Positions 19,888 to 63,429 of a DNA stretch of 64,000 bases are shown here, piece by piece. The stretch spans positions 2,542,001-2,606,000 of the forward strand of contig NC_063068.1 in assembly GCF_022605165.1 (NCBI RefSeq), in the 5' to 3' direction. The stretch's first letter is position 1, and every line of letters starts with the position of its first letter. Position numbers and translations under genes: made by a program. This DNA comes from Purpureocillium takamizusanense. Taxonomy: Eukaryota > Ascomycota > Sordariomycetes > Hypocreales > Ophiocordycipitaceae. The notes under the pieces are model-generated. The model was given only the letters and a program-made list of their open reading frames with translations. It searched no databases and was not told the origin of the DNA.

Positions 19888-22800
19888 ATGGACATGATTG
19901 ACGTCTCGCGGCAGACGAGGTCGCTCCTACGGGATGCGACTGCGTTGGATCATCTGCCCCCGGATTTACTCGGTTTGATCCGGAATTTCTCATCGACAAA
20001 CCTCTTGGATGCCATCTCGCAGGCGGCGCTCATCCCGCGACTTACAGAGCGAGTCTTTGTGCACTTTGAGGACGTCTTTCCCGACCTGTGTGCGCGATGG
20101 ATTCTCAACGCAGGCAACGACACATCTCGCCATATTCGAATCTCATCGGCTTTTGCCCGGATATTACCATTCGCACCCTATCTCTCAAATTTTCTCACGT
20201 CTTCTGCTGGTGAGGCGCCAGCCGTGAACCACCCTCCGGCGCTGCGGCTGCAGCTCCCAACACTGGACGAATCTACGTCGCCCAGCCTGAGCACAGAAAG
20301 CTTACTAGAGAGCCTTGTTACGATATGGAGGCTCTTGAGCTTTGACTCGCGCACATTTACCAGTATCGTCTCGCTCACTTACGTGCAGAGCTTGTTCGTC
20401 CATGAGAGCCGGGCAGTACGATATGTGGCCATCCGCATCTTCTGTCAGCTGCTCCACGCTTCCGACCTCAAGCTCGAGAACCTAGTGGATGCGCACGTTG
20501 GCAAAGACGAAGCCGTCATTGCCGCTCTGGATGGAAGGCCCATTGACTTTGGCTTCTTGTCGCTGCATGAGCATGACCGAGCAAAGGCAGTCATCGCGTT
20601 GCGGAGCGAAGTCGAGCGGGACCACGAGCACATCGCTGAAGCTGCTGAAGCGCAGAGTCTCACACCGTACGTTGTGCCGTATGGGAGAATACTCCTTCCT
20701 CGGCCACACGGTCCCATCGGTGACCCGTCGAGCCTCGTGAGGACAGCCACGACGACCAAGAATCTCGAGGCTCTGGCCACTATGCTTCGAGAACCAGACC
20801 CGATTCTTCTGCACGGCCTCCCGGGCGTTGGCAAGACGTCTTTGATCCACGAGATAGCCCGCCAGCTGGGCATGTATTCTAACATGGTCACGCTGCATCT
20901 CAACGAACAGACCGACGCCAAGATGCTCGTGGGTCTGTACTCGACAGACTCCAAGCCAGGGAGCTTCCAGTGGAGGCCTGGTGTCTTGACTACAGCTGTC
21001 AGGGAGGGTCGATGGGTACTAGTGGAGGATCTTGATCGGGCACCGACCGAGGTTCTGAGCACCTTGCTGCCGCTGATAGAGCGAAAGGAGCTGCTCATTC
21101 CGAGCCGTGGAGAGAGGATACGAGCCGCCAACAGCTTTCGACTCTTCGCCACCGTCCGGACATCTCGTGGCATGAATGGCCGAGAAAATCTTCCGACCTT
21201 GGTGGGAATACGTTTCTGGAGATCCCTCTGCATGGAAGCCCTGACGCAGCCGGAGCTAGAAGATGTGGTGCTGCAAACGTATCCCATACTGCGAAAATTT
21301 GTTCCCGGGATCTTGGCTGTTCATCGGCGGCTATCTCATATGGCTAACAACCTGGCCCTCATGTCTCGTGGGCGAAGCGTAATGGATCGACAGATTAACT
21401 TGAGAGATCTCCTCAAGTGGTGCCGCAGGCTGAGAGAGTGTCTCCTCACAGCAGGCTCAACGTCTGGGGACGAACCCATCAGCGAAACCACTCGAGACTG
21501 GATGTTTATGGAGGCACTCGACTGCTTCGTTGGTAGTTGCCCCGATGTTGAGCTGGGCAAAAACCTGGTTTACGCCATTGCTGAAGAGATGCACATGTCC
21601 AAAGAACGAGCGGACCACTACCTGTCCGCCAATATACCCCCTTTGGAAGAGAGTGAATTCAGCTTCAACATTGGGCGAGCCCAACTGCGAAAGAAAAAAA
21701 CAACCCGTCTGCAAAAGTCAAAGCGGCCGTTTGCAAGCACTGCACATGCCAAGAGGCTCCTGGAGCAGATTGCCGTGGCAGTGAAGCTGGAGGAGCCTGT
21801 GCTACTGGTAGGCGAGACAGGTATCGGCAAAACCACCGTGGTACAGCAATTAGCAGAATCTCTGGGGCACAGACTGATCGCAGTCAATCTCTCCCAGCAG
21901 AGTGAGGTTGGTGATTTACTGGGCGGTTTCAAACCTGTCAATGTCCGAAGCCTTGCTGTCCCACTCAAAGAAGAATTCGAGGATCTCTTCGCAGCCACAG
22001 GCATTTCGGCTTCAAAAAACCAGAAGTATCTGGAGCAATTTGGTCGATGCTTTGCCAAAGGACAGTGGTCCAAATTGTCCAAGCTTTGGAAAGAAGCACC
22101 GAAAATGTTTGTCAGGATCCTCATGGAGCTTGAGCGGATGCATTCGGAGACGCGGGACGACGACGCGCAGCCAAATAAGCGCCGAAAGACGCAGTCAAAG
22201 CTGCAGACGCTCTCTGAATTGCGGCCGCGGTGGGATACGTTTGCTCGCAATCTTGAGCAGTTTGACGTTCAAATTGCCGGCGGGTCTGGAGCCTTTGCGT
22301 TTTCTTTTGTCGAGGGAAACCTTGTCAAAGCCGTGCGCAACGGCGACTGGGTGCTCTTGGACGAGATCAATCTGGCCTCTCCTGATACTCTTGAAAGTAT
22401 TGCCGATTTGTTGACTGGGCCCGATGAACGCCCCTGCATTCTACTATCCGAGACGGGAGAGATTGAGAAGATTGTGGCGCACCCGAACTTTCGCATATTT
22501 GGCGCCATGAATCCGGCGACAGATATTGGCAAGAGAGATCTGCCTGTTGGCATTCGCTCGCGATTTACAGAGCTCTACGTCGGAAGCCCTGATGCGGACC
22601 TCAAAGACTTGTTGACAATCATCAAAACCTACCTGGGAAGCACAAGCATGAAACACGACCAAGCCGCCGATGATATCGCACGGCTCTATCTCAACACTAA
22701 GCGAATGGCTGAGGAGAAAAGGCTCGTTGACGGAGCAAACGAGGTGCCGCACTTTAGCTTGCGAACTTTGACTCGAGTGCTTAGCTATGTCAACACTATT

Positions 22801-25800
22801 GCACCTCTCTATGGCGTGCGCCGGGCGTTGTACGAAGGCTTTTCCATGGGATTCCTGACGCTCCTCGATCGCGACTCCGAGAGGATGCTCTTACCTCTCA
22901 TCTATCACCATCTTCTGGACAAACATGGAGATCCCCACGCCCTCCTGTCCCAAACACCCAAGCACCCAAACGACGGAAGACGCTATGTCAGGTTCCAGAA
23001 TCAGAACCGTGATCGCCAGTATTGGCTCTTTCAAGGCGAGGAGACCCCTGTGCGGCGGGACGATTACATTATTACACCTTACGTGGAGCGGAACCTGTTG
23101 AACTTGGTCCGCGCCACATCCACCAGGCGATTCCCCATCCTCATCCAAGGTCCCACGTCTGCTGGAAAAACGAGCATGATAGAATACTTGGCCAATTTCA
23201 CCGGCAACAAGTTTGTTCGTATCAACAATCACGAGCACACGGACCTTCAAGAGTATCTTGGCACATATGTATCTGGTCCAGATGGGAAGCTACGATTCCA
23301 GGAAGGCCTTCTCGTGCAGGCTATGAGAGAGGGTCACTGGATTGTACTCGATGAGCTCAATCTGGCGCCAACCGACGTGCTGGAAGCCCTCAACAGGCTG
23401 CTAGATGACAATCGCGAGCTCCTCATCCCCGAGACCCAAGAAGTTGTCAGGCCTCACGAGAACTTCATTCTTTTCGCGACGCAAAATCCGCCAGGTCTCT
23501 ACGGCGGTCGCAAAGTGCTCTCCAGAGCCTTCAGAAACCGGTTCCTCGAGCTGCACTTTGACGATATTCCCGAGGATGAGCTGGAGTACATTTTGCAGCA
23601 GCGCAGCCGCAACACGTCCCCCCCGGATTGTCGACGTATTGTCACTGTGTACAAGGAACTCTCGAGACTGCGCCAGACGAGCCGATTGTTTGAGCAGAAG
23701 GACAGCTTTGCCACACTACGAGATCTGTTCCGGTGGGCTTTGCGAGAGGCTGAGACCAGAGACGAGATTGCCACCCACGGATTTATGCTTCTCGCCGAGA
23801 GAGTTCGAAACGAGGAAGAGAGGCTAGCCGTGAAGGAGGTCATTGAGAGGGTCTTTAAGCTCAAGATCGACCCTCATCGCCTCTATGCTGCAGACGTTGC
23901 CCCCGAACTCAGACACCCTACCAAACTGTCGAATGCTCAGGGTGTTGTGTGGACTCATGCTATGCGAAGGCTGTATGTGCTCGTCTCCAGAGCCCTGCGG
24001 AACAACGAACCCGTGCTACTGGTCGGCGAGACAGGTTGCGGCAAGACCACCGTCTGTCAACTTCTTGCCGAGGCCCTCCAAAAAGAGTTGCACATCGTCA
24101 ACGCCCACCAAAACACCGAGACTGGAGATTTGATTGGCTCGCAAAGGCCTATCCGCAATCGCGGCGCCATTCTGGAGGCTTTGGATGCCGACCTCCGATC
24201 TATCTTTGAGGCTTTAGGCCTGGATGCCACAGGCTCGGTAGACGAAAAAGTTGCGGCTTTCAAGGCTCTCCAACCGTCAGCTCTCGCCGCTGCCCCTGCC
24301 GAACTTATCGAACGCGTTGCCACGAATGAGTCGAGGGCAAAAGCACTTTTTGAGTGGTCGGATGGCGCACTGGTCGAGGCCATGCGAGGTGGACACTACT
24401 TCCTTCTCGACGAGATTTCCCTCGCCGACGATTCTGTTTTGGAACGCCTGAACTCAGTGCTTGAGCCGCAGCGCACTCTTCTTCTAGCTGAGAAGGGTAT
24501 TGACAACTCGTTCGTGGTCGGGTCTGAAGGCTTCCAATTTTTTGCTACCATGAACCCGGGTGGCGACTTTGGCAAGAAGGAATTGTCCCCTGCGCTGCGC
24601 AACCGTTTCACAGAGATTTGGGTCCCTCCTTTATCAGAGAGCGACGATATCTACGAGATCGTGCGGACAAAACTTGCTGATGGATCTAAGCATCTCGTAG
24701 ATGCTATGGTTCAGTTCGCCTCTTGGTTCGGCGACACATTTAGATCAATGGCTACCACCAGATTTTCGGTACGGGAAATTCTTGTCTGGGTGCAATTCAT
24801 TAATACGTTCGAGAGTCAGGATCCGGTGGCGTCTGTTATTCACGGAGCATCGGCCATTTTTATTGACAGCATCGGGGCCAATCCTTCAGCTATGCTAGCG
24901 ACAGATCTCAAGTCGATCAATCAACAGAGGATGTCGTGTCTTGTCAAGCTCGGCCAGCTTCTCAATCGCGACGTTGTCTCTGCATACGAATCGGAGCCAG
25001 TGCTGGTTATGACGGATAGCCTGCTTTCGATTGGAAATTTCAGTACGCCCCGTACCAAGACAGGTGCGACGGACTCGGGATTCGCCTTCGATGCACCGAC
25101 CACCAGACTCAACGCCATGCGAGTCCTCCGAGCTCTACAAATGCGCAAGCCGATTCTTCTGGAGGGAAGCCCTGGCGTAGGAAAGACATCCCTGGTAGCA
25201 GCCTTGTCGCAAGCTTGCGGGCGGCCACTTACCCGCATCAACTTGTCCGACCAAACCGATCTGATGGATCTGTTCGGCACCGACGTCCCGGTCGAAGGCG
25301 AAGAGGTAGGAAATTTTGCTTGGAGGGACGCACCATTTCTGCAGGCTATGCAGAAGGGTGAGTGGGTGCTCCTAGACGAGATGAATCTGGCATCCCAATC
25401 CGTTTTGGAAGGTCTGAACGCCTGTCTGGATCATCGTGGCGAGGTCTACATCTCTGAACTCGACCAAGTCTTCAAACGTCACCCTGATTTCCGGCTCTTT
25501 GCGGCACAAAACCCTCACCACCAAGGCGGCGGCCGCAAGGGTCTACCGGCTTCTTTTGTAAACCGTTTTATCGTGGTCTACGCAGATGTCCTCAAAGACG
25601 AGGACCTCAAATTAATCGCCTCTCACAACTTCCCCAAACTCTCAGCTGAAGTTGTACGCCATTTGATCGACTTTGTCTCTGAGATAGACCGCCAACTTGT
25701 GGTGGAGAAGACCTTTGGAGTACAGGGAGGCCCCTGGGAGTTTAACGTGCGTGACGTCCTGCGTTGGTTGAACCTGCTGAATTCATCCGATCCTCTACTT

Positions 25801-28800
25801 CAAACCGCACGAGTGGACGATTTCCTGGACATTCTTGTGCGTCAGCGATTCCGCACTCAAAAGGATCGTGAGGAAGTGAGCAAGCTCTTCGCCCAAGTCG
25901 TGGGTTGGGCACCCAGGTCCCACCACCTATACCACGATACCAATTCAAGATTCGGGCAGGTCGGTCTGGCACTTCTCCGAAGGAACCTGAACTCTCAACC
26001 CGAGCGGCTGCCCACAGTTGATGTCGTACCCAGACTTTCCGAACTAGAGTCTGTCATGATCTGCGTGGAACAAAATATTCCTTGCATTTTAAGCAGCACG
26101 TCAGGGTTTGGAAAATCGACTCTTTTACGATTCGTGGCTGCCATGGCAGGAAAGCCTCTCACCGTCTTCCCCATGAATGCCGACATTGATACGATGGACC
26201 TGGTGGGCGGGTTTGAACAGGCCGACCCTCTCAGAGAAATCAACTCAACTCTTCGGGATTTGAGTACCTTCCTCAAAGAATCCGCGATGCGTCTGGCCCC
26301 CGCAACGGTGCCGGCTGAAGTGTTGCGGCTGTTGCATCTGCTTGACCGTTTTTCTGGCAATGTCCGGGACATTGCGGCCATTCACGACGTTGTTGAGTCT
26401 CTTTCGACACAAGTTGCTGCCGATTCTGAAGTTGGCATTGCACTTTCTAAGTCGAATGAACTTCTTCGAGGACCGCTGGCTCTTGAGAATCCTCGTTTCG
26501 AATGGCTTGATGGAGTCATTGTCAAAGCTCTCGAGAGCGGACAGTGGCTGGTTCTGGACAACGCCAATATGTGCAATGCCTCTGTCTTGGACAGGCTAAA
26601 TTCACTTTTGGAACCGAATGGTTTTCTTAGCATCAACGAGCACTGTGACTCGGATGGGAAACCTAGAATCATCCGACCACACCCGGAGTTCAGAATCTTC
26701 CTGACGATGGATCCTCGCTATGGCGAGCTGTCCCGGGCGATGCGCAATCGCGCGATCGAGATACACATCAGCACACCACCACCAGTGATGGACATGTGCT
26801 TTGATCGAATGTCGAGCATTGAGAGTAGGCTCCAAAGATATAAGGATTCGTGGGAATTGTGCCAGGAATTTGCTGCAGAGATTGCCGTTTCTCGAATCGC
26901 CGTCGACAATCTTTCGCTGCAAGACGTGTCGCTCCTATCCCGATTTATCAATCAGCCGGAAAGGCTCGCACAGGACGGGAAGTCGCTTCAGGGGATGCGA
27001 GAAATGCTTCAATTCTTACAGTCAAAGTTCGGATCCGACATCCTGCGCGCCATCATCAAGGCGTATTCGACTCTTCCTCAGGTGGCGTCATCAGCGCTTT
27101 CGTCCGTGCAGCCAATTCACATGCTCGGCAATCCGAGGGTCTCGCAGCTCCTTCCTATTAATGGCGAGCCCCAATGGATGGCGATACGATACGAATTCAC
27201 TCGTGTCCTTCACGGGTTTCATAGTCTCGTTGAGGAACAACGTGGGCAAGCTCGTTCGGCTAAGCTGGCGACATTGAGCCGACTACAACGCTCTCTGATC
27301 AGTGATCGAGTTGCAGTGGTGTCCAAGGACTCGACTGTCAAACTGGCGATGTTCCTGTCTGCCGTCATTGGTACGACTCTTGAATACTTGGCGTCTGAGT
27401 TCGCGTCTTTAGAGACATTTCAAGAACGCGCCCACTTTGTGCGTCTCATCTGTCTCTACATTGGACGAACCTTGCGACTTTCGATGGCCACCGAGTTCGA
27501 TGAAGCTCAGTTCCAGGCTCACTTAGCTCTTGGTGCCGGCTTCCTCCAGAGTCAAGCAGAAAAATTCACGGCCAGAGAGGACAATGATCTCGTTGGCTTC
27601 GTCCGTAATCGGCTTCATGCCGATTTCAACAGCGGATTCAAGCTGTCCACTGGTCTGAGTATGGAAGTTCTGTGGAATGTTCTGCGACCGACTCCAATCC
27701 CTGACAAATCAACTCTGGATCGGATCTTGGATCTAGATCAACTTGGCGTCCGATTTGATGCCATTCGTTGGAAGGCTAGCGCATCCATTGATGAGCTGAC
27801 GAAGGCGCAGCAGACTTTACGTCAGGCATACGAAATAGTTCGTGGTGGTATAGTTGCGGCTGATGGGCTGGTCAACGACCTCACATCGGCCATTCAATCT
27901 CTTGAGGCAAAGATCGGGGACGATGAAACCGACTTCAAGCCTTTTTTCGCGACGGAGTTCGAGGCGCTCAGACAGTTGTCCATGTTGAGACATGACACTT
28001 TAATCGCGAGCTATAAGGACCTTGACATCCTGTCAAGCGTTCCCACCAAGGCTCTGATGCTGTTCACGAGCTCAAAGGGGGCGGAGGCCATCTTACAGTC
28101 GGTCGACTGCCTCGTCCATCAGGATGTGTATTCCTGGGACGGCAAACTTGTTCCATCTTTATGGAGCAAGATGCAGAATATGAGCGGTGTCAGCATTCGC
28201 TCTCTTGCGTTGCTCGAAGCCGAACTGCCAGCCATGGGCCGATCATTGTCTGGCCTGAGTGCTCAAGTCATGGCAGACCCTCTGGAGAGCCTCAATGAAA
28301 CACTCTGGCATCTTATAGTCCAGGTATTTGCTGCACACGGTTCGAATTTGCGGGTCCTTGCGCACGCCATCAGGGCGCAGGCGACGAAATGCCAAAGTTT
28401 TGCGGCTCAGATCCTTCGAGAGGGCCTGCCGACAAACAACGACATCTTTGACCATCTCATCGTGGAGATTGAAGCTCTTCATCTTCGGGATGTTGCTCGC
28501 TCGCATCTCATCCCGGCTATCATTGGCATCATGGTCGCGGAAAACGACAATGCACACAGAGCACAGTTCTGTGCGCTTGCCTGGATTCAATTCAGTGTCG
28601 GACTCGTGAAGCTCTATGTTCCAGATCGCATCTTCGATCCTCAGCTCCGTCCGCGAGCTGAACTGGATTTCTTCCAGGGACTTCAAACTCAATTGCAAGA
28701 CAGCATCCTGGCTTTGAAGGCATTTGAAAAGAGCTTTACAGGCCAGGGCACAAGCGTGCGTATTGACCTGGTTGAGCAAGAACTTGCCGAGCTCGGCCCC

Positions 28801-31800
28801 CTGCCAGAGCAGATACAGCCGGTCTACAGACCCAAGCTTTCGGAGCTCACCATACTTCATGCCGAATTCTCCAATATCTTGAAGACCGTTGTTGACCACA
28901 GTCTGTCCTCTGCTGGTCAACACCTTGACGCGCCCCCAGTTGGAGGAAGCGACGGGCTGCACCTCGTCAGAGAGAATGTCAAGCGCCTTATTGATCGTTT
29001 GTCTTCGCGATTCGACGCATACCAAGACATGACTAGGCCCGCTGTCAACGCTCTGCGATGCCTTTCTGTTGGCTTATCGCTCTGTGACACTGCGAGAGCA
29101 CACAAGCTGGACGCCTCCACCGAAGAACTTGTCAAAGCGACACCTTTCTTCGGTGGCCGTGATTGGGATTTCTCTGCTGGCACGCTGTCGTCGAAATCCT
29201 TTGAATATCTCAGTTTGATGGTGGCAAAGACGGCTGTTGAAGGCAGAGACAATCTGCCTCCGCATCACCGCGAGCTCATCTTTGGCTGTTTTCACGGCTT
29301 TTATGACGATTGGAGCAAGAAGCTTGAAGCGGATCGCAAATCAGCAGCGGCAAACACCAGCCTTTACCGATTTCGAGGCTCAGAGGAAGACGAGGAGGAG
29401 ATTGACCAGCAAGAATTCAACGAATTGTTCCCGACCTACGATGACGACGATGTAGATGCAACACGCATCATCAAGCCAGATCAGGTTCGAGACATGTCTA
29501 TCAAAGTGGCTGAGGTGCATAGCAAGATCTTCCTCGACAGCCCTGAACCGCCAGCGGCGATCCGAGAAGCTTGTATGGCTGTCGGCTGCCGAGTTGCCCG
29601 CGAAACGTCGAGTCAGCCACACATCGAGCGCACAGTGAACAGGAAGCTACTTGTCCCAACAATGCTACTCCTCAACGACAAGCTGGACGAGCTGCAGTCC
29701 CCTACCGTGGATAATTCGTACAACTTTTACACTGATGCCAACCTGGCTGAGGCCCGGAAGCTTGTCGTACTAGCATACCAGATCAAGTCACGTTTCCAGG
29801 AGCTGCAGCTGGTGGACGAAATCGGACACATGCAGCCGCTGGCAGATGTTGTACAGTCCTGCGACAAGCTTCTCGACCAGGCCCACGATGAGCCGCTCGC
29901 CAAGATGCTCCCCAAAGTGGAGCAGCTGCATGCTCACGTCTACGAGTGGCAGTTTGGAGGCTGGGCGAGCAAAGTGCACGCCGTTCTGTCCCTGCACGAC
30001 GCCCTCACCGATACCGTTATCCGCTGGCGCCGCCTGGAGCTGTCAACTTGGGCGAACCTCTTTGAGATGGAGCAGAAAAAGTGCCAGGATGATGCCTTCT
30101 CTTGGTGGTTCGTCGCATACCAAGTCGTGGTTGCCGTCCCCCTGTCAATGGTGGATTCTACCAGCGACCTGCGAGAGTACGCGCCCGCACTCATTCAGAA
30201 CCTGGAGTTGTACTTTTCCAGTTCCATTGTTGGCCAGTTCAAGACTCGGGTCTCCCTTTTGAGGCAACTACTAGGTCATCTTCGCCTGCTGGTCAAAGAC
30301 TACCCGAAACTGAACATCATCTGCCACGCCGTCGAGAATTTTGTCGATTTTTACGCTCGATATGAACCCGCGGCTGAATCTGCCATACAGAGAGGACGCC
30401 AGCCAATCGAAAAGAAAATGAAAGATGTGCTTCTCATGGCAAGCTGGAAGGACACAAACATCAACGCCCTCCGTGAGAGTGCCCGCAAATCTCACCAGAA
30501 GCTCTTCAGAGTGGTCCGAAAGTTTAGAGGTGTTCTTGGGCAGGAGATGAAGAGCATTGTTCAGCAGGGCTTGCCAGATGAGGGTCTCGCATCTGACGAC
30601 CAGAAGCCGCCGGCTCCCGCGGCGGCAGCAGCACTTCAGCAAAAGATACCTATGGCACTAGAAGAAGCCCTTCCTGGGTGGCTTGAGAAGCATCGCCGCT
30701 TGGCCAATGTGTCGATGACGGTGTCGGTCTTGAGGAAGATTACTCACGGCCCAGAGATGACGACAAGCGCTGCTCGCACTGTTGATGACTTTGTCTCAGA
30801 ACTGGATGAATCGATGGCAGAGCTGCGCAAGGAGACCCCGGCCTTCTTGAATAAAGAGAACACAGAGCAAGTCAAGCATCTCAAGACAAGGAAACGGAAG
30901 CTGTTCGCGGACACGTTGCGAGATCTGCGAAACATGGGTCTGAAGCATAATCTCGGCCAAGATAGACTCATGGAGCAAGCGTCACTGGCTGTTGTTCTTG
31001 GCTCAATTCCGCCAGTCCACCATCGAAGTTCTGCCACTCTGAGAAATGCCGAATACTTCTTTCACAAAACTCTCGACTTTGCCCCGCGCGCCCGAGCCGC
31101 AGCACAAGAGCACTCCGAGGAGTTGACCGGCGCCGAGATTGGGCGGAGTATTGGATTTATGGAAGGCATGATTCATCTTGGTCTTTCCCAGCGAAAAAGT
31201 CTCTCAACCGCGACCGAAGCACTGTGTTCGCTCCGATCCATTGCCGATGACTTCATTGCCTTGGGCGACAGTGAGAAAACTCAACAACTCGCACGTCAGG
31301 ACCATGCCAGCGATTGGTCTCTGCTTCTGCCGTGGCTGGCTCAAATGATCAGACTCGCTGTCAGGGTTACGGAGGCTCACGGAAAGCTGGGACAAACCGA
31401 TAATCAACACGTGGTACAAGAGTTAGAGTTATGGGCAGCTAGGGTTGAGACCTATCTCGTCCGTATGAAGGATTTGGGTACTCTACCTCCTGGCATTCTT
31501 TCCGAAACGCACAAGGATTTGGAGGTGTCGGTCCTCAAAGACCTGTGCGCGTTACAGATGACACTGGACGGTCTCATCGCTGGGCGACCCGCCCTCGCGT
31601 TCATTCTCCAGCAACTTCGCGTATGGACACAGGCCGGGCCTCCGCAACCTCACGCCCCAACGGTATCCACCGAGATCCTAGCGTTCGCGAACGAAGCGTC
31701 AACTTTGACAGACACCATTCTGGTGGCTGTTGAGAGCGCAAGGAAGAAGGCTACCTCGGCTCCTAAGGAGGACGACGAGGCGGGATGGCTGCAGAGACAC

Positions 31801-34662
31801 AACGACATCTGTTTCGCGACTGTCAGCCAACTGCACATGAAGCGCATCGAGAAGGGCCTACGCAACTGCATCCATCACCTCCGGGAACTCGACCTGAATG
31901 AGCCACGGATAGGCTCTGCTGCAGCGAGTGTGATTGGGCTGGCAACACCTATCATCGGCCAATTTGTGACTTTCTGTCAACAGTCTGTGGAGCGTGGCAT
32001 CGACCTGCACAGAGCTTGCGTCCATATGGCCTTCTTCTTGACCAAATCTTTCACACAGATAGCCTCGCAAGGCTTCTGCACGCCCCAGGAGAAGTCTGAC
32101 GAGACATCCGGTGACGCAGGTCAGGTCGAGTCTGGGACTGGCCTTGGCGATGGCGAGGGTGCTGAGGACATCAGTAAGGATATTCAACCTGATGAAGATC
32201 TGTTAGAGCTGGCGCAAGAAGCCAACAAAGAGGAGAATGGTGAGATTGAGGATGAAAAGGATGCGGTAGATATGGCGGACGAGGATCTCGAAGGCGAGAT
32301 GGGAAGCATCGCAGGAGAAACCGATGACGAAGAGGGATCTCAAAAGGGCGAAGAAGACGAGAAAAAGGACATTGACGAAGAGGCTGGCGATGTTGACGAC
32401 CTGGACCCGACTGCCGTGGACGAAAAGATGTGGGACGGGGATGACGACAAAGCTGAGAAGGACCAGCAAGGTGACAAGGGCACAGGTCAGAAGCAGGACG
32501 ATGAGCAGATGGCCGCTGATGAGAACGCAAACAATAATGAGGCTGAGCAGGAGCCAGAGTCGAAGCCGACGGAGGAGCCCCAAGGCGATGACGAAGCCGC
32601 CGAGGAGAACCCAGTGGAGGAAGAGGACGTCACTGCGCCAGAGGAACTTAACAGACAAGACCAAAATGTCGACGAGAATGACGCCCTGGAGCTTCCGGAG
32701 GAGATGGATCTGGACTTTGATGACCAACAAGAGGTTTCAGACGATGACCTAGCCGACTTGTCGGACATTGAGGAAGATGCCAAGGAAGCTGAAGCGCAAC
32801 CCCAGGAGGACCCGGCGGATGAAGAAGAGGGGGACAATGCCGCTGCCCAACAAGTCCAAGACGAAGCCGCAGATGATGAGGGTCAAGAGAGCGAGCCTGA
32901 AGATGAAAAGAAGGCCACGGGAGAGGAGCGAGTCGACGAAGAGCCGGAGCCAGAGCCGGAGGATGCGGATAAGGAGACAGAGCATCAGGACCAGGCACCT
33001 CTCTCCAATGACAACGCTAACGCTGATACCGACAATGCCGCCCCGAGCGACGTCAAGAGCTCCGGCCTAGACCAGAATGCGGATGCTATGGACCTGGACG
33101 AGCAGTTTCAGGCTGAAGCGGCGCAGCAGGAGCATGGTGAAATAGGAGACGGCGCCACCGATCAAGATACTAACGCGGGGAACAAGGGTGCTACGTCGCG
33201 AAATAACGACCGGATTGAGCAAACGGAACAAGACGCAAGCGCTGAAGAATCTGCGCGCAGTGATCCGTTTCGCAAGCTGGGAGATGCTCTCGAGAAGTGG
33301 CACCGCCAGCAAGCGGATATCAAGGATGCCAGTTCGGATGACGACAGGCAGCAAGCTGAGCGGAAAGCGGAGGCAGAGCAAGGGCGTCAAGAATTCCAGC
33401 ACCTGCAAAACGACGATGCCGCAGCGGACACGCAAGCTATGGGAACGGCCGAGGACGAAGAGGCTCAACCTATCGACGAATCCATGGCAGTAGAGGAAGA
33501 CAAGCAAGATCCCTCGAGCCGAGTAATGAACGAAGATGTCGAAGAGCCAGCCGAGGGGCCCGACGGTATGGACCTGGGTGATTCTGTCGAAGCTGAGGAG
33601 GCCAAAGCAAGCGAGGTGGACAACGATCGATCTGGGGTCAAGACACGACAAGGCAACTACAATCGAGAGCCTACCCCCGAACCTCGGGTTTTAGGCGTCG
33701 CTGGAGATGAGAGCGAAGAAAGTCACATCGAGGAGACATCGACTCAACTCTCATCAACGCACATCACGGATGAGCGCCCGCTGCGGGACTACGCAGAATG
33801 CATGCGACAGTGGAGCGAGTTCCAGACCAAGTCGCACGCGTTGTCGCTCTCGCTGACATCGCAGCTGCGGCTAATCCTCACGCCGTCGCAATCGACGAAG
33901 CTTTCGGGTTCGTTCCGGACCGGCAAGCGGCTCAACATCAAGCGCATTATCCCATACATTGCATCCAGCTACAAGCGAGACAAGATATGGATGCGGCGAG
34001 CAGTCCCAACGAAGCGGACATATCAGATCTTGGTGTGCGTCGATGACAGCAAAAGCATGGGAGAGTCGTCGTCGGGGAGCCTCGCGATGGAGTCGCTGGT
34101 CATGGTGTCGAGGTCATTGACGATGCTGGAGGCGGGCCATGTCGGCGTCGTTGGCTTCGGAGGCGACGTCTTCACGGCGCACGAACTGGCGGAGCCTTTT
34201 GGCGCCGATGCTGGCGCAAAGGTGTTGCAAAAGTTTTCATTTGGGCAGGACCGGACGGACATTGCACAGCTGATCCGGCGAACGATTGACATGTTCCGTA
34301 TGGCAAGGCAGCAGTCGGGCGGCAGCTCGGACCTTTGGCAGCTGGCGCTGATACTGTCAGACGGGCTGACGCCATCGTCTGCACACGACTCGATCCGACG
34401 GCTGCTGCGCGAGGCGATGGAGGAGCGCATCATGATCGTTTTCATTATCATGGACGACACAGGCAAGAAGAAGGGAGACAGTGTGCTGGAGCTCAAGGAG
34501 GCCAAGTTTGTCAAGGGCGACGACGGAGAGAGCAAGGTGGTGATTGAGCGGTACCTCGACACGTTTCCGTTCCAGTACTACCTGATTGTACACCAGCTGG
34601 AGGAGCTGCCGAGTGCACTGGCAGGTCTGTTGAGAACGTGGTTTGCAGAGGTCACGGCCTAG
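19888..34662 (+). CDS. MDN1: Midasin (dynein-like AAA ATPase for 60S assembly)
   Basis: One uninterrupted frame of 4924 aa, the usual midasin length. After an N-terminal domain (about 1-300) come six AAA modules with Walker A loops near residues 312 (GLPGVGKTS), 642 (GETGIGKTT), 1087 (GPTSAGKTS), 1379 (GETGCGKTT), 1758 (GSPGVGKTS) and 2071 (STSGFGKST). Walker B motifs such as VLLDEINLA, IVLDELNLA and VLLDEMNLA follow. A long helical linker spans about 2400-4050. An Asp/Glu-rich segment (about 4070-4600) leads to the C-terminal MIDAS domain, with metal-site VDDSKSM near 4717. Midasin pulls assembly factors Rsa4 and Ytm1 off pre-60S particles in nucleoplasm and nucleolus. Position 21690-21725 carries a basic patch resembling a nuclear signal. 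No intron or frame break is seen in 14.8 kb. Confidence 0.97.
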   Translation: MDMIDVSRQTRSLLRDATALDHLPPDLLGLIRNFSSTNLLDAISQAALIPRLTERVFVHFEDVFPDLCARWILNAGNDTSRHIRISSAFARILPFAPYLSNFLTSSAGEAPAVNHPPALRLQLPTLDESTSPSLSTESLLESLVTIWRLLSFDSRTFTSIVSLTYVQSLFVHESRAVRYVAIRIFCQLLHASDLKLENLVDAHVGKDEAVIAALDGRPIDFGFLSLHEHDRAKAVIALRSEVERDHEHIAEAAEAQSLTPYVVPYGRILLPRPHGPIGDPSSLVRTATTTKNLEALATMLREPDPILLHGLPGVGKTSLIHEIARQLGMYSNMVTLHLNEQTDAKMLVGLYSTDSKPGSFQWRPGVLTTAVREGRWVLVEDLDRAPTEVLSTLLPLIERKELLIPSRGERIRAANSFRLFATVRTSRGMNGRENLPTLVGIRFWRSLCMEALTQPELEDVVLQTYPILRKFVPGILAVHRRLSHMANNLALMSRGRSVMDRQINLRDLLKWCRRLRECLLTAGSTSGDEPISETTRDWMFMEALDCFVGSCPDVELGKNLVYAIAEEMHMSKERADHYLSANIPPLEESEFSFNIGRAQLRKKKTTRLQKSKRPFASTAHAKRLLEQIAVAVKLEEPVLLVGETGIGKTTVVQQLAESLGHRLIAVNLSQQSEVGDLLGGFKPVNVRSLAVPLKEEFEDLFAATGISASKNQKYLEQFGRCFAKGQWSKLSKLWKEAPKMFVRILMELERMHSETRDDDAQPNKRRKTQSKLQTLSELRPRWDTFARNLEQFDVQIAGGSGAFAFSFVEGNLVKAVRNGDWVLLDEINLASPDTLESIADLLTGPDERPCILLSETGEIEKIVAHPNFRIFGAMNPATDIGKRDLPVGIRSRFTELYVGSPDADLKDLLTIIKTYLGSTSMKHDQAADDIARLYLNTKRMAEEKRLVDGANEVPHFSLRTLTRVLSYVNTIAPLYGVRRALYEGFSMGFLTLLDRDSERMLLPLIYHHLLDKHGDPHALLSQTPKHPNDGRRYVRFQNQNRDRQYWLFQGEETPVRRDDYIITPYVERNLLNLVRATSTRRFPILIQGPTSAGKTSMIEYLANFTGNKFVRINNHEHTDLQEYLGTYVSGPDGKLRFQEGLLVQAMREGHWIVLDELNLAPTDVLEALNRLLDDNRELLIPETQEVVRPHENFILFATQNPPGLYGGRKVLSRAFRNRFLELHFDDIPEDELEYILQQRSRNTSPPDCRRIVTVYKELSRLRQTSRLFEQKDSFATLRDLFRWALREAETRDEIATHGFMLLAERVRNEEERLAVKEVIERVFKLKIDPHRLYAADVAPELRHPTKLSNAQGVVWTHAMRRLYVLVSRALRNNEPVLLVGETGCGKTTVCQLLAEALQKELHIVNAHQNTETGDLIGSQRPIRNRGAILEALDADLRSIFEALGLDATGSVDEKVAAFKALQPSALAAAPAELIERVATNESRAKALFEWSDGALVEAMRGGHYFLLDEISLADDSVLERLNSVLEPQRTLLLAEKGIDNSFVVGSEGFQFFATMNPGGDFGKKELSPALRNRFTEIWVPPLSESDDIYEIVRTKLADGSKHLVDAMVQFASWFGDTFRSMATTRFSVREILVWVQFINTFESQDPVASVIHGASAIFIDSIGANPSAMLATDLKSINQQRMSCLVKLGQLLNRDVVSAYESEPVLVMTDSLLSIGNFSTPRTKTGATDSGFAFDAPTTRLNAMRVLRALQMRKPILLEGSPGVGKTSLVAALSQACGRPLTRINLSDQTDLMDLFGTDVPVEGEEVGNFAWRDAPFLQAMQKGEWVLLDEMNLASQSVLEGLNACLDHRGEVYISELDQVFKRHPDFRLFAAQNPHHQGGGRKGLPASFVNRFIVVYADVLKDEDLKLIASHNFPKLSAEVVRHLIDFVSEIDRQLVVEKTFGVQGGPWEFNVRDVLRWLNLLNSSDPLLQTARVDDFLDILVRQRFRTQKDREEVSKLFAQVVGWAPRSHHLYHDTNSRFGQVGLALLRRNLNSQPERLPTVDVVPRLSELESVMICVEQNIPCILSSTSGFGKSTLLRFVAAMAGKPLTVFPMNADIDTMDLVGGFEQADPLREINSTLRDLSTFLKESAMRLAPATVPAEVLRLLHLLDRFSGNVRDIAAIHDVVESLSTQVAADSEVGIALSKSNELLRGPLALENPRFEWLDGVIVKALESGQWLVLDNANMCNASVLDRLNSLLEPNGFLSINEHCDSDGKPRIIRPHPEFRIFLTMDPRYGELSRAMRNRAIEIHISTPPPVMDMCFDRMSSIESRLQRYKDSWELCQEFAAEIAVSRIAVDNLSLQDVSLLSRFINQPERLAQDGKSLQGMREMLQFLQSKFGSDILRAIIKAYSTLPQVASSALSSVQPIHMLGNPRVSQLLPINGEPQWMAIRYEFTRVLHGFHSLVEEQRGQARSAKLATLSRLQRSLISDRVAVVSKDSTVKLAMFLSAVIGTTLEYLASEFASLETFQERAHFVRLICLYIGRTLRLSMATEFDEAQFQAHLALGAGFLQSQAEKFTAREDNDLVGFVRNRLHADFNSGFKLSTGLSMEVLWNVLRPTPIPDKSTLDRILDLDQLGVRFDAIRWKASASIDELTKAQQTLRQAYEIVRGGIVAADGLVNDLTSAIQSLEAKIGDDETDFKPFFATEFEALRQLSMLRHDTLIASYKDLDILSSVPTKALMLFTSSKGAEAILQSVDCLVHQDVYSWDGKLVPSLWSKMQNMSGVSIRSLALLEAELPAMGRSLSGLSAQVMADPLESLNETLWHLIVQVFAAHGSNLRVLAHAIRAQATKCQSFAAQILREGLPTNNDIFDHLIVEIEALHLRDVARSHLIPAIIGIMVAENDNAHRAQFCALAWIQFSVGLVKLYVPDRIFDPQLRPRAELDFFQGLQTQLQDSILALKAFEKSFTGQGTSVRIDLVEQELAELGPLPEQIQPVYRPKLSELTILHAEFSNILKTVVDHSLSSAGQHLDAPPVGGSDGLHLVRENVKRLIDRLSSRFDAYQDMTRPAVNALRCLSVGLSLCDTARAHKLDASTEELVKATPFFGGRDWDFSAGTLSSKSFEYLSLMVAKTAVEGRDNLPPHHRELIFGCFHGFYDDWSKKLEADRKSAAANTSLYRFRGSEEDEEEIDQQEFNELFPTYDDDDVDATRIIKPDQVRDMSIKVAEVHSKIFLDSPEPPAAIREACMAVGCRVARETSSQPHIERTVNRKLLVPTMLLLNDKLDELQSPTVDNSYNFYTDANLAEARKLVVLAYQIKSRFQELQLVDEIGHMQPLADVVQSCDKLLDQAHDEPLAKMLPKVEQLHAHVYEWQFGGWASKVHAVLSLHDALTDTVIRWRRLELSTWANLFEMEQKKCQDDAFSWWFVAYQVVVAVPLSMVDSTSDLREYAPALIQNLELYFSSSIVGQFKTRVSLLRQLLGHLRLLVKDYPKLNIICHAVENFVDFYARYEPAAESAIQRGRQPIEKKMKDVLLMASWKDTNINALRESARKSHQKLFRVVRKFRGVLGQEMKSIVQQGLPDEGLASDDQKPPAPAAAAALQQKIPMALEEALPGWLEKHRRLANVSMTVSVLRKITHGPEMTTSAARTVDDFVSELDESMAELRKETPAFLNKENTEQVKHLKTRKRKLFADTLRDLRNMGLKHNLGQDRLMEQASLAVVLGSIPPVHHRSSATLRNAEYFFHKTLDFAPRARAAAQEHSEELTGAEIGRSIGFMEGMIHLGLSQRKSLSTATEALCSLRSIADDFIALGDSEKTQQLARQDHASDWSLLLPWLAQMIRLAVRVTEAHGKLGQTDNQHVVQELELWAARVETYLVRMKDLGTLPPGILSETHKDLEVSVLKDLCALQMTLDGLIAGRPALAFILQQLRVWTQAGPPQPHAPTVSTEILAFANEASTLTDTILVAVESARKKATSAPKEDDEAGWLQRHNDICFATVSQLHMKRIEKGLRNCIHHLRELDLNEPRIGSAAASVIGLATPIIGQFVTFCQQSVERGIDLHRACVHMAFFLTKSFTQIASQGFCTPQEKSDETSGDAGQVESGTGLGDGEGAEDISKDIQPDEDLLELAQEANKEENGEIEDEKDAVDMADEDLEGEMGSIAGETDDEEGSQKGEEDEKKDIDEEAGDVDDLDPTAVDEKMWDGDDDKAEKDQQGDKGTGQKQDDEQMAADENANNNEAEQEPESKPTEEPQGDDEAAEENPVEEEDVTAPEELNRQDQNVDENDALELPEEMDLDFDDQQEVSDDDLADLSDIEEDAKEAEAQPQEDPADEEEGDNAAAQQVQDEAADDEGQESEPEDEKKATGEERVDEEPEPEPEDADKETEHQDQAPLSNDNANADTDNAAPSDVKSSGLDQNADAMDLDEQFQAEAAQQEHGEIGDGATDQDTNAGNKGATSRNNDRIEQTEQDASAEESARSDPFRKLGDALEKWHRQQADIKDASSDDDRQQAERKAEAEQGRQEFQHLQNDDAAADTQAMGTAEDEEAQPIDESMAVEEDKQDPSSRVMNEDVEEPAEGPDGMDLGDSVEAEEAKASEVDNDRSGVKTRQGNYNREPTPEPRVLGVAGDESEESHIEETSTQLSSTHITDERPLRDYAECMRQWSEFQTKSHALSLSLTSQLRLILTPSQSTKLSGSFRTGKRLNIKRIIPYIASSYKRDKIWMRRAVPTKRTYQILVCVDDSKSMGESSSGSLAMESLVMVSRSLTMLEAGHVGVVGFGGDVFTAHELAEPFGADAGAKVLQKFSFGQDRTDIAQLIRRTIDMFRMARQQSGGSSDLWQLALILSDGLTPSSAHDSIRRLLREAMEERIMIVFIIMDDTGKKKGDSVLELKEAKFVKGDDGESKVVIERYLDTFPFQYYLIVHQLEELPSALAGLLRTWFAEVTA

Positions 34663-43289: not shown

Positions 43290-43992
43290 CTACAGGTCCA
43301 TGCGGAAAAAGGTGCCTGGCCAAATCGCTCCGCTGGCTCTGCCAAACGAAAAGTCTCCCACCCTGGTGAACCCCAGCTTTTCGTAGTACCTAGTTCAACC
43401 ATGTCAGAGCGGTCGTTTGAGCCTTTTGGTCATCACCCCGTTCAGATCGGCCTCACCTGCTCAGCTTGGCGTCGTTGCCAGCCCAGCAATCCACATACAG
43501 GGTGCGCTTGTTCCTGTCCCGCCCGTAGCTCTTGATAGCCTCAATCAGCGCCGCCCCGGCTCCCTTGTGGAGCGAGCCCGTCCGGTAGTCCGAGATGACG
43601 ACCTCGAGGAAGAGAAAGTCCCTCGCCCCGTCCACCTCGGGCTTCATCTCTTCTCGCTCCGTAATGTACGACGGCAGCGAGTCTTCGCGTATCATGGCCG
43701 AGCCGACGCGCACGGGGGGCTGCGCCGTGCCTTGCGGCGCCGCGGCGGCACCGACATCGACCTCGGCGATGAAGACCCGCAGCGGCTCGTCGTCGCGCTC
43801 CGATTTCTGGATCGATTCAATCGTTTCTGCTTCGAAACCGTCTTTGGCGGAAAAGGGCTCTTCTCCCCACATCCCGCCAGCGCCGATGGACGCAAGGTAC
43901 GGGATTGTCGAGTCGAACGCGCCCACGATGAACTGGGCATCGTCGCCGCTCGACCTCGCGTGGCGAACACGAAATTGGTTGGTTCCAGGCAT
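43290..43992 (-). CDS. GNAT-family N-acetyltransferase
   Basis: Two exons, 43992-43457 and 43389-43290, give 211 aa. The acetyl-CoA motif sits near residues 139-151 (GSLHKGAGAALIEA), after the beta strand FLFLEVVISDYR. Motif B spans the splice site: TLYVDCWAGNDAKLSR joined to YYEKLGFTRVGDF. The protein ends with GTFFRMDL, typical of small GNATs. The substrate cannot be told. I chose MPGTNQF as start; the frame continues upstream to ATGs at 44127 and 44106, giving up to 45 extra residues of no clear character. It lies next to the repeat-precursor gene on the same strand, but 820 bp away, so a role in that pathway is only possible. Confidence 0.82.
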
Positions 43993-44807: not shown

Positions 44808-45421
44808 CTACTCTGTCATGGCGGGCTTGTTGTAGGCAAGGTCGCCGTCGAGACCCGAGCGTCTCTCAGGACTGGCTGGTTTATTATAAGCAAGGTCGCC
44901 ATCAAGACCCGAGCGCCTCTCGGGGCTGGCAGGCTTGTTGTAAGCAAGGTCGCCGTCGAGTCCCGAGCGCCTCTCAGGACTAGCTGGCTTGTTGTAGGCA
45001 AGGTCGCCGTCTAGCGTAGACCGCTTTCCCGGACTGGCGGGCTTATTATAAGCGAGATCGCCGTCGAGTCCCGAGCGCCTCTCAGGACTGGCTGGCTTAT
45101 TGTAGGCGAGGTCACCGTCGAGTCCGGACCGCCTCTCGGGGCTAGCTGGTTTATTATAAGCAAGGTCGCCATCAAGACCCAAGCGCCTCTCGGGGCTGGC
45201 TGGCTTGTTGTAAGCAAGGTCGCCGTCAAGCCCCGAACGTCTCTCGGGGCTGGCAGGCTTGTTGTACGAGAGGTCGCCATCCAAGCTGCCGCGGGTGATA
45301 TGGCCTTTGACGCGAATTAGGCGGGCGTAAGATAGGATAGCGGAAATCTCGAGAACAAACCACGAGGAAGAGCAGACGCTCCCAACGCCAAAAGTGCAGC
45401 GACGCTCAAGACTCCCTTCAT
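44808..45421 (-). CDS. Secreted Kex2-type repeat precursor peptide (candidate RiPP precursor)
   Basis: Two exons, 45421-45361 and 45304-44808, give 185 aa. The short first exon encodes a textbook signal peptide (starts MKGVLSVAALLALGASA, probable cut after Ala17). The 56-nt intron has donor GTTTGT, a CTAAT-like branch site and acceptor AAAG; a donor four bases earlier would also keep frame. Residues 26-185 are nine tandem units, consensus SGLDGDLAYNKPASPERR, each but the last ending in RR (KR in unit 5), ideal Kex2 sites. Unit 1 has Ser for Ala before Tyr; unit 9 stops after NKPAMTE. This layout (signal peptide, near-identical repeats, dibasic spacers, Tyr in each core) is that of fungal dikaritin and epichloecyclin precursors. 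The divergent neighbour is a UstYa gene. A TATATA lies about 120 bp upstream. Without splicing, an ORF from another start lacks any signal peptide. Confidence 0.85.
44811..45290 (-). repeat. Nine tandem 54-bp units inside the precursor gene
   Basis: Eight 54-bp units plus a 48-bp final unit, no indels between them. Differences are mostly synonymous. The block starting near 44877 is almost identical over 60 bp to that near 45147, exactly 270 bp (five units) away, pointing to past duplication of groups of units. Confidence 0.95.
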
Positions 45422-46895: not shown

Positions 46896-48139
46896 ATGGC
46901 TATGAAAGAGTCCTCTGATTATATGCCCCTTGATCATGAAGGTTCCACGTCCAGCTTGGACATGGAAGATGAAATGCTAATACGGAAGCTGCGAATTTCC
47001 CGCAGCCATCGCAGTTCCTATATGAAACTCGTCATTGTTTTGGCTGTGGTGTTAGCTATCGCCATATACACATCAATCATCGCATCCGTGACGTGGGGAA
47101 TCGCCAAGGAGAAACGTCGATATGGGACTCGATTCCTCGGATGTGAGTTTTGATCCTGCAAACTGGACTGGAGAGTCTATCATGGCAATATAAACTGATC
47201 ATACTGTCACCACAGCTCCTGCAAACGACTTCATCACTTACCAGTCATATGTCATGGATCAGTGGGAGCCTCGAGAAGGTGTGCGATATTTTGGGGAGCC
47301 CAGCGAAGAAGTTGATCATAGTTGGCATGAAATCTTTGAGCGTATGTAAGCACTATACTGACATAGCTCTAGAGTGAAGCTGACAGACAGATCGTGCATA
47401 GATCAAAATATTGGATTCTCGGAACAGCTCATGCGTGACCTGGGTCGGGAACAGGAGGGCATTCGACTGCCTGATGGCACTTATTTTGGCTCATTGATGG
47501 TCTTTCATCATCTCCATTGCCTCGTGAGTCATATGTTCGAATGCTCCTCGTTGAAATCTGATGTCACCAGAAGCTGACTTGGCAGAAAAACATCTACCAT
47601 GCTCTGCACCCCGCCTACTACCACCTTGACAAACTCAAAGGTCACGAGAAAGCCATGCATGATGAACACACGGGTAAGTCCTTGCTCTAGTGCCATGAAG
47701 GGCGACGTGGATATATAGAGATTTGTGATGAATAATACTGGCACAGATCACTGCCTCCACATGCTCATGGACGCCGTCATGTGTCAGGGAGACACCACCG
47801 TCCTTACGATGAAATGGGAGGAGGGGGGAGCCCGCCCCATAGGAAACCTGACGAGCCCACACGAGTGTGTCAATTGGGACAGACTGATGGAGTGGGTTGT
47901 ACCCAACTCGGTTGATGTTTTTGCCGATGGCGTGCTCGTCCATCCCACGTACGGTATGTTGATGAACCCAGCCAGTATTGGCTGATATTTACTCCATGCG
48001 GGCGCACCCATCCAGTGCGCATGTTGCTAACGAACATGAACCAGGCCCTCTTTTCGTAGGTGGAAAGCCCAGCGAAGGCTTCAAAGACTCTTTGACTACT
48101 ACTGGGGTAGGGAAAGTGACTGGTCTTGACCCTCAGTGA
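46896..48139 (+). CDS. UstYa-type (DUF3328) RiPP oxidase/cyclase
   Basis: Six exons: 46896-47142, 47216-47341, 47402-47523, 47586-47673, 47747-47953 and 48045-48139, giving 294 aa. The short cytosolic N-terminus is followed by one membrane helix at about 44-66 (KLVIVLAVVLAIAIYTSIIA). The lumenal part contains both family motifs HXXHC: HHLHC at 160-164 (in LMVFHHLHCL) and HTDHC at 193-197 (in HTDHCLHMLMDAVMC). The first is followed by NIYHALHPAYYHL, as usual in UstYa proteins. UstYa and UstYb catalyse oxidative side-chain cyclisation of Tyr-containing core peptides in ustiloxin, phomopsin and related pathways, working in the secretory route on Kex2 products. The divergent precursor gene is its probable substrate source. 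All splice sites are GT...AG; the second and third junctions were chosen by frame. Confidence 0.88.
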
Positions 48140-61533: not shown

Positions 61534-63429
61534 ATGGCAGTCGACTATGGCGTGTACCTCGTCACCGACTCGACGCCCGCCATCCTCGGCTCGCGCAGCC
61601 TCGCCGGCGCGGTCGAGGCCTCGCTCCGGGGCGGCGCCGGCGTCGTGCAGTACCGGGACAAGACGGCCTCGCACGACGACGCGGTGCGCACCGCGCGCGA
61701 GCTGCTCGCCGTGACGCGCCGCTTCGGCGTGCCGCTTCTCGTCAACGACCGCGTCGAGGTGGCCGTCGAGGTTGGCTGCGAGGGCGTGCACATTGGCCAG
61801 GACGACATGGGTAGGTTCAAACCCATTTTGTACGTTGAGGAATTAAAGGGGGACAATTGAGGAAGGACAAAGATAGATGACGGTGATGATGATGATGATG
61901 ATGATGATGGCTGACGAGGATAAACGTGCGTGATGCGTGCACACACACACCTGTAGAGTTTCAAAAGGCGCGCCAGATGCTTGGCCCGGACAAAATCATT
62001 GGCGTGACGGCCAGCTCGACGGAAGAGGCCCTCCGCGCGTGTGAGGCCGGCGCGACATATCTCGGCCTCGGCACCGTCTACGCCACGCAGACGTACGTGA
62101 CGCAATTCAACTCTTATCTCACTGACGCTTCCCTCTCAACCGTCATCATCATACTCCCCCATTTAGCTTACACCTCACGTTTTCTCTCTCATAGCAAAAA
62201 GGACACAAAGGCCATCATCGGCCCTCACGGCGTTCGCGACATCCTCGCCGCCCTCGCCGCCGCCGGGCACGCCTCTGTCCCCACCGTCTGCATCGGCGGC
62301 ATCAACGCCTCCAATGCCGGCGACGTCCTCCTCCTCGCCGCCGCCGCCACCACCACCACCACCACCAGCGGCAGCACCCCGGCCAAGTCGCTCGACGGCG
62401 TGGCCGTCGTCAGCGCTCTCGTTGCGGCCCCGGACCCCGCCGATGCCGCGCGCCACCTCCTCGGCCAGGTCCTCCGCGCCCGCGTCCCCGACGTCGTCCG
62501 CAGCGTCGCCGCCACGACCCCCCTGTCGCACAACATGACCAACCTCGTCGTCCAGAACATCGCCGCCAATGTTGCCCTCGCCGTCGGCGCAAGCCCCATC
62601 ATGGCGAATTACGCCGAGGAGGCTGCTGACCTAGCTCGCCTAGGCGGCGCCCTCGTCGTCAACATGGGCACCGTTACCCCTGACGGGCTCAAGAATTACC
62701 TCCAGGCGCTCAAGGCGTACAACGACGCCGGACGGCCTGTGATCCTCGATCCGGTCGGGTACGTAACTTATCCTCGCCGTCCCACTGCTGCCCGGACGCA
62801 GCACCTTCCTTGGTCGCGCCGTTTTCTGACCATGCTCCCCCTTCAGAGCCGGCGCTACCGCCGTCCGCCGCTCGGCCGTCGAGACGCTCCTCTCCTCGGG
62901 CCGTTACGCCGTCATCAAGGGCAACGCCTCCGAGATGCTCGTGGTGCGTGGCGGCTCCGGGCCCCTCGCCCAGCGCGGCGTCGACTCCACGTCGCAGCTC
63001 ACCCTCGCCCAGCGCGCCAGCCTCGCCCGCGATGTCGCCCGGCGACACCGCTGCGTCGCCCTCGTCACGGGCGCCACCGACCTGCTCAGCGACGGTCGCC
63101 GCGTCGTGCGCGTCGACAACGGCCACGAGCTGCTCGGCATGATCACTGGCTCCGGCTGCACCCTTGGCACCGCCGTCAGCGCCATGGTCTGCTCTCCCGT
63201 CGGCGCCGCGGAACCTCTCGCCGCGGCCGTGGCCGCCACCGTCATGTTCGGCATCGCGGCTGAGATGGCCGCTGAACGGCCCGAGGTCAGAGGCCCGGGC
63301 ACCTTCGTGCCTGCCTTCCTCGACGAGCTGTATAGCATTCGCAAGGCCACAGCAGCGGGCGATCTGCGTTGGCTAGTGCTGGCAAAGGTGCAGGCCATCG
63401 ATGTTCCTGAAGATGACGCCTCTCCATGA
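61534..63429 (+). CDS. THI6: Bifunctional thiamine-phosphate synthase / hydroxyethylthiazole kinase
   Basis: Four exons: 61534-61810, 61957-62092, 62195-62758 and 62847-63429, giving 519 aa. Residues 1-235 are thiamine-phosphate synthase (ThiE-like TIM barrel): YGVYLVTDST, GGAGVVQYRDK, LLVNDRVEVA, GVHIGQDDM, KIIGVTASSTEEAL, TYLGLGTVYAT, KKDTK and VCIGGINASN. A Thr-rich linker (six Thr in a row) interrupts the barrel end. Residues from about 250 are the ThiM-like kinase: PLSHNMTNLVVQNIAANVALAVGASPIM, NMGTV, PVILDPVGAGA, VIKGNASEM and the catalytic Cys430 in ITGSGCTLG. The enzyme makes thiamine phosphate from the thiazole and pyrimidine moieties and phosphorylates salvaged thiazole. Intron 1 carries a (GAT)n tract at 61884-61909. 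Confidence 0.95.

Follow-up and report, generated by a model that had tools for sequence, protein, structure and literature searches.

The window, i.e., the whole analysed stretch of 64,000 nucleotides of Purpureocillium takamizusanense DNA (G000:C1:2542001-2606000), contains a two-exon precursor gene whose ATG lies at 45421 and whose stop codon ends at 44808 (minus strand, read directly), together with a UstYa-family gene in divergent orientation, the two start codons being 1.47 kb apart (Table 1). The original prediction had placed at 44808..45421 a spliced gene joining a signal peptide to a series of repeats, and both the coordinates and this design hold. Splicing out 45360-45305 (56 nt) gives a 185-residue model composed of MKGVLSVAALLALGASA, LPRGHITR, and nine 18-residue units. 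The repeat ORF spans 211 codons, and its sole Met is found at index 208 (counted from 0), three residues before the end; a frame devoid of an upstream ATG must obtain its start from some 5' exon. The ATG at 45421, located just 5' of the repeat frame in a different frame, opens MKGVLSVAALLALGASALPRG.

Table 1. Features of the precursor locus, its surroundings, and other UstYa-linked tandem precursors in the genome
Feature	Position	Strand	Remarks
Precursor exon 1	45361..45421	-	start codon, signal peptide MKGVLSVAALLALGASA, LPR, first base of next Gly codon
Putative phase-1 intron, 56 nt	45305..45360	-	GTTTGT...CTAAT...CAAAG; weak AAG acceptor
Precursor exon 2	44808..45304	-	HITR, nine 18-residue units, stop
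Nine repeat units (last = 16 residues + stop)	44808..45290	-	invariant LDGDL-x-YNKPA, 9/9; units 2-8 RR/KR-flanked on both sides
Interval separating the divergent start codons	45422..46895	.	position alone
UstYa-family oxidase gene, six exons, 294-aa or 299-aa model	46896..48139	+	PF11807; motifs HHLHC and HTDHC
UstYa gene exons	46896-47142, 47216-47341, 47402-47523 (or from 47387), 47586-47673, 47747-47953, 48045-48139	+	GT-AG introns
GNAT-type acetyltransferase gene, one intron assumed	43293..43992	-	Acetyltransf_1, E 0.00079, 20.1 bits, just under cut-off 20.7
NSRP1-like gene	1-984		Pfam
Midasin (MDN1)	19837-34659	+	single open frame, 4941 codons, no internal stop
GDSL lipase	about 42.9-41.9 kb		Pfam
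PFF1-type vacuolar protease (M28)	about 48.8-52 kb		Pfam; adjoins UstYa gene
C5 precursor, core SEAQSPDILYNNQAGWG, 6 units	L023 (G000:C5:572000-581900) 5520-6101	-	between UstYa genes 3846-4508 and 7737-8180
C9 precursor, core AEPDRHQAYI, 14 units	L026 3167-3889	-	beside UstYa gene
C14 precursor, core LYPVTWPSK (also given as LYPVTWPS), 4 units	L027 7074-7529	+	beside UstYa gene
C9 precursor, NKVDSYALRSGWYYTKR (core also given as NKVDSYALRSGWYYT), 3 units	L032 2504-2851	-	beside UstYa gene
C9 precursor, TGLYAPANWGTKR (core also given as TGLYAPANWGT), 3 units and degenerate fourth	L034 2939-3277	-	beside UstYa gene

Five phase-compatible splices (56, 59, 71, 101, and 107 nt) retain the repeat frame. 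The full signal peptide and all nine units are preserved by the 56- and 59-nt splices; the 71-nt splice retains the signal peptide but substitutes other residues for the first two of unit 1, part of the signal peptide is lost with the 101-nt splice, and most of unit 1 with the 107-nt splice. The 56-nt intron, with CTAAT a short way 5' of its acceptor and a weak AAG at the acceptor itself, is the one presumably used. Of 2000 dinucleotide shuffles of the 250 nt that precede exon 2, 5 contained a signal-peptide-like ORF scoring at least as well, as judged by a simple hydrophobicity score and with no splice compatibility required of the shuffled sequences. Two database hits were discarded: a match of the precursor to Mre11_C in Pfam (E 1e-5, 26 bits, below the cut-off of 27, with no stretch passing alone) is a chance effect of the repeat, and a search of PDB sequences returned just Cu-Zn superoxide dismutase chains with E of about 0.7, which is not meaningful.

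The repeat DNA forms a single family, in which eight 216-nt copies overlap in an exact 54-nt register. At the peptide level, units 2, 4, 7, and 8 read SGLDGDLAYNKPASPERR, unit 1 reads GSLDGDLSYNKPASPERR, unit 3 LGLDGDLAYNKPASPERR, unit 5 SGLDGDLAYNKPASPGKR, unit 6 STLDGDLAYNKPASPERR, and the final unit, before the stop codon, SGLDGDLAYNKPAMTE. Nine units of 18 residues ending in RR or KR had been predicted; the number is correct, although unit 9 consists of 16 residues and the stop. The shared 16-residue unit, SGLDGDLAYNKPASPE, is exact in four of the nine (2, 4, 7, and 8), the five others each being a single variant. Eight dibasic sites (seven RR, one KR) occupy all eight unit boundaries, but the nine Kex2-flanked cores originally proposed reduce to seven (units 2-8), as unit 1 is preceded by ITR with no dibasic pair and unit 9 runs into the stop codon. 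A single Tyr per unit, also foreseen, is present in 9/9 units with Asp nearby, and Trp, His, and Cys are absent from every unit.

All nine units agree at positions 3-7 and 9-13 (LDGDL-x-YNKPA), so this stretch is likely the core; among the first 16 positions only 1, 2, 8, 14, 15, and 16 vary. Across the 16 codons, in contrast, every third position is variable (16/16), compared with five first and four second positions, and the mean pairwise pS of 0.71 far exceeds the pN of 0.073 (first 16 codons, nine units). Together with the 54-nt register and the late position of the only Met in the frame, this excess excludes a chance origin of the repeats. As the peptide was kept while silent sites drifted far, the pattern favors selection acting on the peptide and disfavors a recent tandem expansion.

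The precursor fits the KEP (Kex2-processed repeat protein) class, for which a signal peptide and at least three tandem repeats of at least eight residues between KR, KK, RK, or RR are the stated rule (PMC7329392): seven units of at least eight residues lie between dibasic pairs, and MKGVLSVAALLALGASA behaves as an N-terminal signal peptide by its hydrophobicity score if the proposed splice is used. The original prediction regarded this architecture as defining the ustiloxin-like RiPP precursors. That is too strong, because similar repeats are also found in alpha-pheromones and other linear peptides (PMC9769878; PMC7329392), and the RiPP assignment rests instead on the UstYa gene, which the prediction had overlooked and which supports its reading of a Kex2-processed RiPP precursor.

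The spliced 294-residue model of this neighbor matches PF11807 with E 1.8e-45 (156 bits, cut-off 25); its exon-1 frame on its own has no Pfam match. By eye, the model contains an N-terminal hydrophobic helix and both HXXHC motifs looked for in dikaritin-type oxidases. It is the nearest recognised gene on that side of the precursor, and the interval between the two start codons is possibly a shared promoter region. A UstYa/DUF3328 gene near the precursor and a Tyr in the repeated core (9/9 units; usual, not obligatory) are further features of dikaritin loci found here. The first definition of the class (Ding et al., as given in PMC12048977) calls for a tyrosinase, a methyltransferase, several DUF3328 proteins, and genes for a transporter or a peptidase; at this locus there is one UstYa gene, and no tyrosinase, methyltransferase, or transporter was recognised among 32 scanned items. 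In later use, the DUF3328 protein itself is class-defining, and functional clusters that lack some of the genes of the first definition have been reported. UstYa-family proteins also act in non-RiPP pathways (PMC12048977).

The Pfam scan covered 32 ORFs or gene models of the window (three of the precursor/UstYa pair and 29 others), some short exons falling outside it. Fourteen of the 29 have a Pfam match, and these neighbors, the weak GNAT match aside, read as housekeeping-like: besides those listed in Table 1, they include a protein kinase, LMBR1-like, HAT1, P5C reductase, UTP10/HEATR1 with BP28CT, NDH2, and thiamine synthesis genes. The M28 peptidase beside the UstYa gene likewise reads as a vacuolar housekeeping enzyme. 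The putative GNAT gene sits between the GDSL lipase and the precursor and possibly belongs to the precursor locus. No regulator or transcription factor was recognised among the 32 items either; a further tailoring gene might be hidden among the 15 without a match.

The genome (35,574,015 bases, 14 contigs) was searched for the processing enzymes and for similar loci. It contains a single Kex2 candidate, represented by one P-proprotein match in a frame that appears by eye to be a Kex2-type subtilase, and 23 exon-level matches to S10 carboxypeptidases, among which Kex1 is expected without being singled out. PF11807 has at least 35 exon-level matches in 17 neighborhoods, the window included. A repeat detector, which requires three or more similar units within a single open frame and misses shorter or spliced arrays, was run on the window and on 20 further stretches (the 16 other UstYa neighborhoods and four flanks). 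Tandem precursors were found in 6 of the 17 UstYa neighborhoods, counting the window, a figure that has no matched negative set behind it; the detector found no countable tandem precursor in the other 11. Two calls were left out of the count: a basic-rich one elsewhere in the window (61565-61741), which is a false positive, and a doubtful array without Tyr in L038 (6543-6779). Two clusters of UstYa matches lie within 10 kb of a contig start (G000:C9:1-9900, L030, and G000:C2:1-9900, L025); neither contains a tandem precursor recognised by the detector.

Four of the five other cores have a Trp four to six residues past the Tyr, whereas Trp is absent from the window core and from AEPDRHQAYI. In the pS/pN comparison of these other loci, the units were chosen by peptide pattern, and pN is biased low. 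A genome search with the precursor as the query retrieved the C5 array (E 5.6e-4) and two further places (E 0.59 and 2.4) in addition to the precursor's own gene; since it also matched the reverse-strand reading of this gene with E 2.9e-25, the repeats inflate the E-values of this query, and such values are not trustworthy. Kinship of the C5 array with the window precursor, suggested by the look of the motif D-x-x-Y-N, is accordingly treated as only a lead. The two loci share a signal peptide (MKAVLPIVLALFGAAIAA in C5), tandem units (six in C5), a UstYa association, and similar motifs (D-[IV]-L-Y-N versus D-L-A-Y-N in the window), but the C5 core SEAQSPDILYNNQAGWG contains Trp, two UstYa genes are present, and the signal peptide and repeats occupy one open frame. 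The same C5 neighborhood encodes an ORF (L023 8376-9227) with two HXXHC motifs and no Pfam match.

The UstYa exon closest to that of the window is found at C1:1933099 (45% identity over 78 residues), beside a tyrosinase match. Seen from the precursor/UstYa pair of the window, the only tyrosinase-type match elsewhere on contig C1 is about 0.66 Mb away. In the neighborhood of this relative (L024, G000:C1:1928000-1937900), the tyrosinase match (2692-3407, minus strand), the UstYa gene (4631-5336, plus strand), and a small secreted ORF (5932-6155, plus strand) follow one another, the ORF reading MRAQSFTGLFLLLASVCAS...GKRRLGQVHDIMGPGEAYDDEGYGDMVAR after one putative intron. Judging by this arrangement, L024 is possibly a non-repetitive, single-core locus of dikaritin type.

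The best explanation, to which a probability of about 0.8 is given, is a minimal two-gene locus of dikaritin type, in which secretion, Kex2/Kex1 release, and UstYa oxidation lead to a secreted product. The gene anatomy, the constraint on the peptide, the adjacency of UstYa, and the single genomic Kex2 candidate are its observed foundation; expression, splicing, cleavage, the chemistry of oxidation, and the identity of a crosslink we infer, drawing the mechanism by analogy from ustiloxin, asperipin-2a, and phomopsin. The signal peptide would take the precursor into the secretory pathway, where Kex2 would cleave at the eight RR/KR sites and Kex1 remove the basic residues, releasing mainly the 16-mer SGLDGDLAYNKPASPE; this order of cutting follows the account in PMC9769878. 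The adjacent membrane-anchored UstYa protein would oxidise the repeat unit in the secretory pathway, and the oxidised product would then be secreted. According to PMC7329392, DUF3328 proteins are indispensable for cyclisation via the Tyr ring in ustiloxin, asperipin-2a, and phomopsin, Tyr occurs in 65.6% of repeats with a DUF3328 neighbor versus 38.2% of those without, and Tyr-rich repeat types often have Asp in the vicinity. Most likely, one side-chain crosslink would form at the single Tyr, making the product 2 Da lighter. The computed [M+2H]2+ is 817.389 for linear SGLDGDLAYNKPASPE and 816.381 for the form short of two H. Because each unit holds a lone Tyr and neither Trp, His, nor Cys, a crosslink, if any, would have to join Tyr to an aliphatic or polar residue. 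Alternatively, a hydroxylated or desaturated form might be produced, and the mass shift need not be minus 2 Da, since desaturation, hydroxylation, and chlorination are reported for the UstYa family as well (PMC10512285; PMC12048977). A more specific proposal is tentative and held at clearly less than even odds: a single UstYa protein, with neither tyrosinase nor other dedicated tailoring enzyme, would make an unseen crosslink in LDGDLAYNKPA (e.g., Tyr to Asn, Lys, or Pro), in a fungus that maintains six or more UstYa-linked precursors with different cores.

The precursor might instead release unmodified linear peptides acting as a signal or effector, with the UstYa gene a chance neighbor or active elsewhere. 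In its favor, 6120 of the 7878 KEPs in the survey of PMC7329392 have no DUF3328 gene among the 15 nearest genes, and PMC9769878 describes the detection of KEP peptides that are linear and minimally modified; besides, among the 32 window items no additional tailoring gene was recognised near the pair. This reading is nevertheless improbable here, given that the first recognised gene on that side of the precursor is a UstYa gene carrying both HXXHC motifs and that tandem precursors occur in five other UstYa neighborhoods of the genome. The adjoining UstYa gene also speaks against an uncleaved structural protein of the wall or surface with incidental RR/KR pairs. The units are uniform and hydrophilic, and cleavage is a prediction, but a dibasic pair at 8/8 boundaries, with KR replacing RR once, makes the structural account very improbable.

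An alpha-type sexual pheromone precursor would share the Kex2-processed repeats (common to such precursors according to PMC6339444), yet it is the least credible of these alternatives. Trp and Cys are absent from all units, so that the Trp-containing core of a pheromone is missing, and no Pfam pheromone family matches at E up to 0.1. Filamentous-fungal alpha-pheromones also contain Trp. In the yeast MF_alpha profile, WXW forms a part, and pheromone KEPs are nearly all without DUF3328 neighbors, with three exceptions (both as stated in PMC7329392).

The precursor most likely belongs to a known family of fungal peptide natural products, as a member yet to be characterised. In the survey of 1461 strains summarized in PMC7329392, 7878 such precursors were collected, 1758 of them (22%) with a DUF3328 neighbor, whereas just five dikaritins had been reported according to a 2022 review (PMC10512285). 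The precursor had been called undescribed: the five core strings of the window locus, like those of the five other tandem loci, were found in none of the 5.39 million papers of a literature search that covered article text and not the survey supplements listing thousands of precursors, and the comparison of homologs extends to this genome only, so the claim holds only in that weak sense. With a single precursor, a single UstYa gene, a lone Tyr in each unit, and a mass that can be predicted, the locus makes a small, clean test case. Its confirmation would reveal what a single UstYa protein can do with no tyrosinase alongside. The locus also directs attention to an insect-associated fungus that has six or more candidates with different cores.

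Among known systems, the KEPs of the surveys by Umemura 2020 and Le Marquer 2019 are one point of reference: the window precursor satisfies the survey rule (PMC7329392), and its core strings do not occur in the survey texts, the supplementary lists lying outside this comparison. Ustiloxin and phomopsin likewise involve UstYa proteins and tandem precursors that are processed by Kex2 and have acidic residues ahead of Tyr (EDYXI, as given in PMC6339444), but they have two and five DUF3328 proteins, respectively, and need a tyrosinase (as stated in PMC7329392), whereas the window has one UstYa gene. Their cores read YAIG or YVIPID, that of the window YNKP. The FYYTGY-type core of asperipin-2a is also unrelated, and the window precursor has one Tyr per unit. 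A reductase and a transporter are encoded by the other genes of the asperipin-2a pathway. Heterologous production of this compound employed four genes (PMC10512285), whereas no further pathway gene was recognised beside the window pair; even so, asperipin-2a from Aspergillus flavus has the same Kex2-type repeat precursor, a Tyr in the core, and a single DUF3328 protein, as described in PMC7329392.
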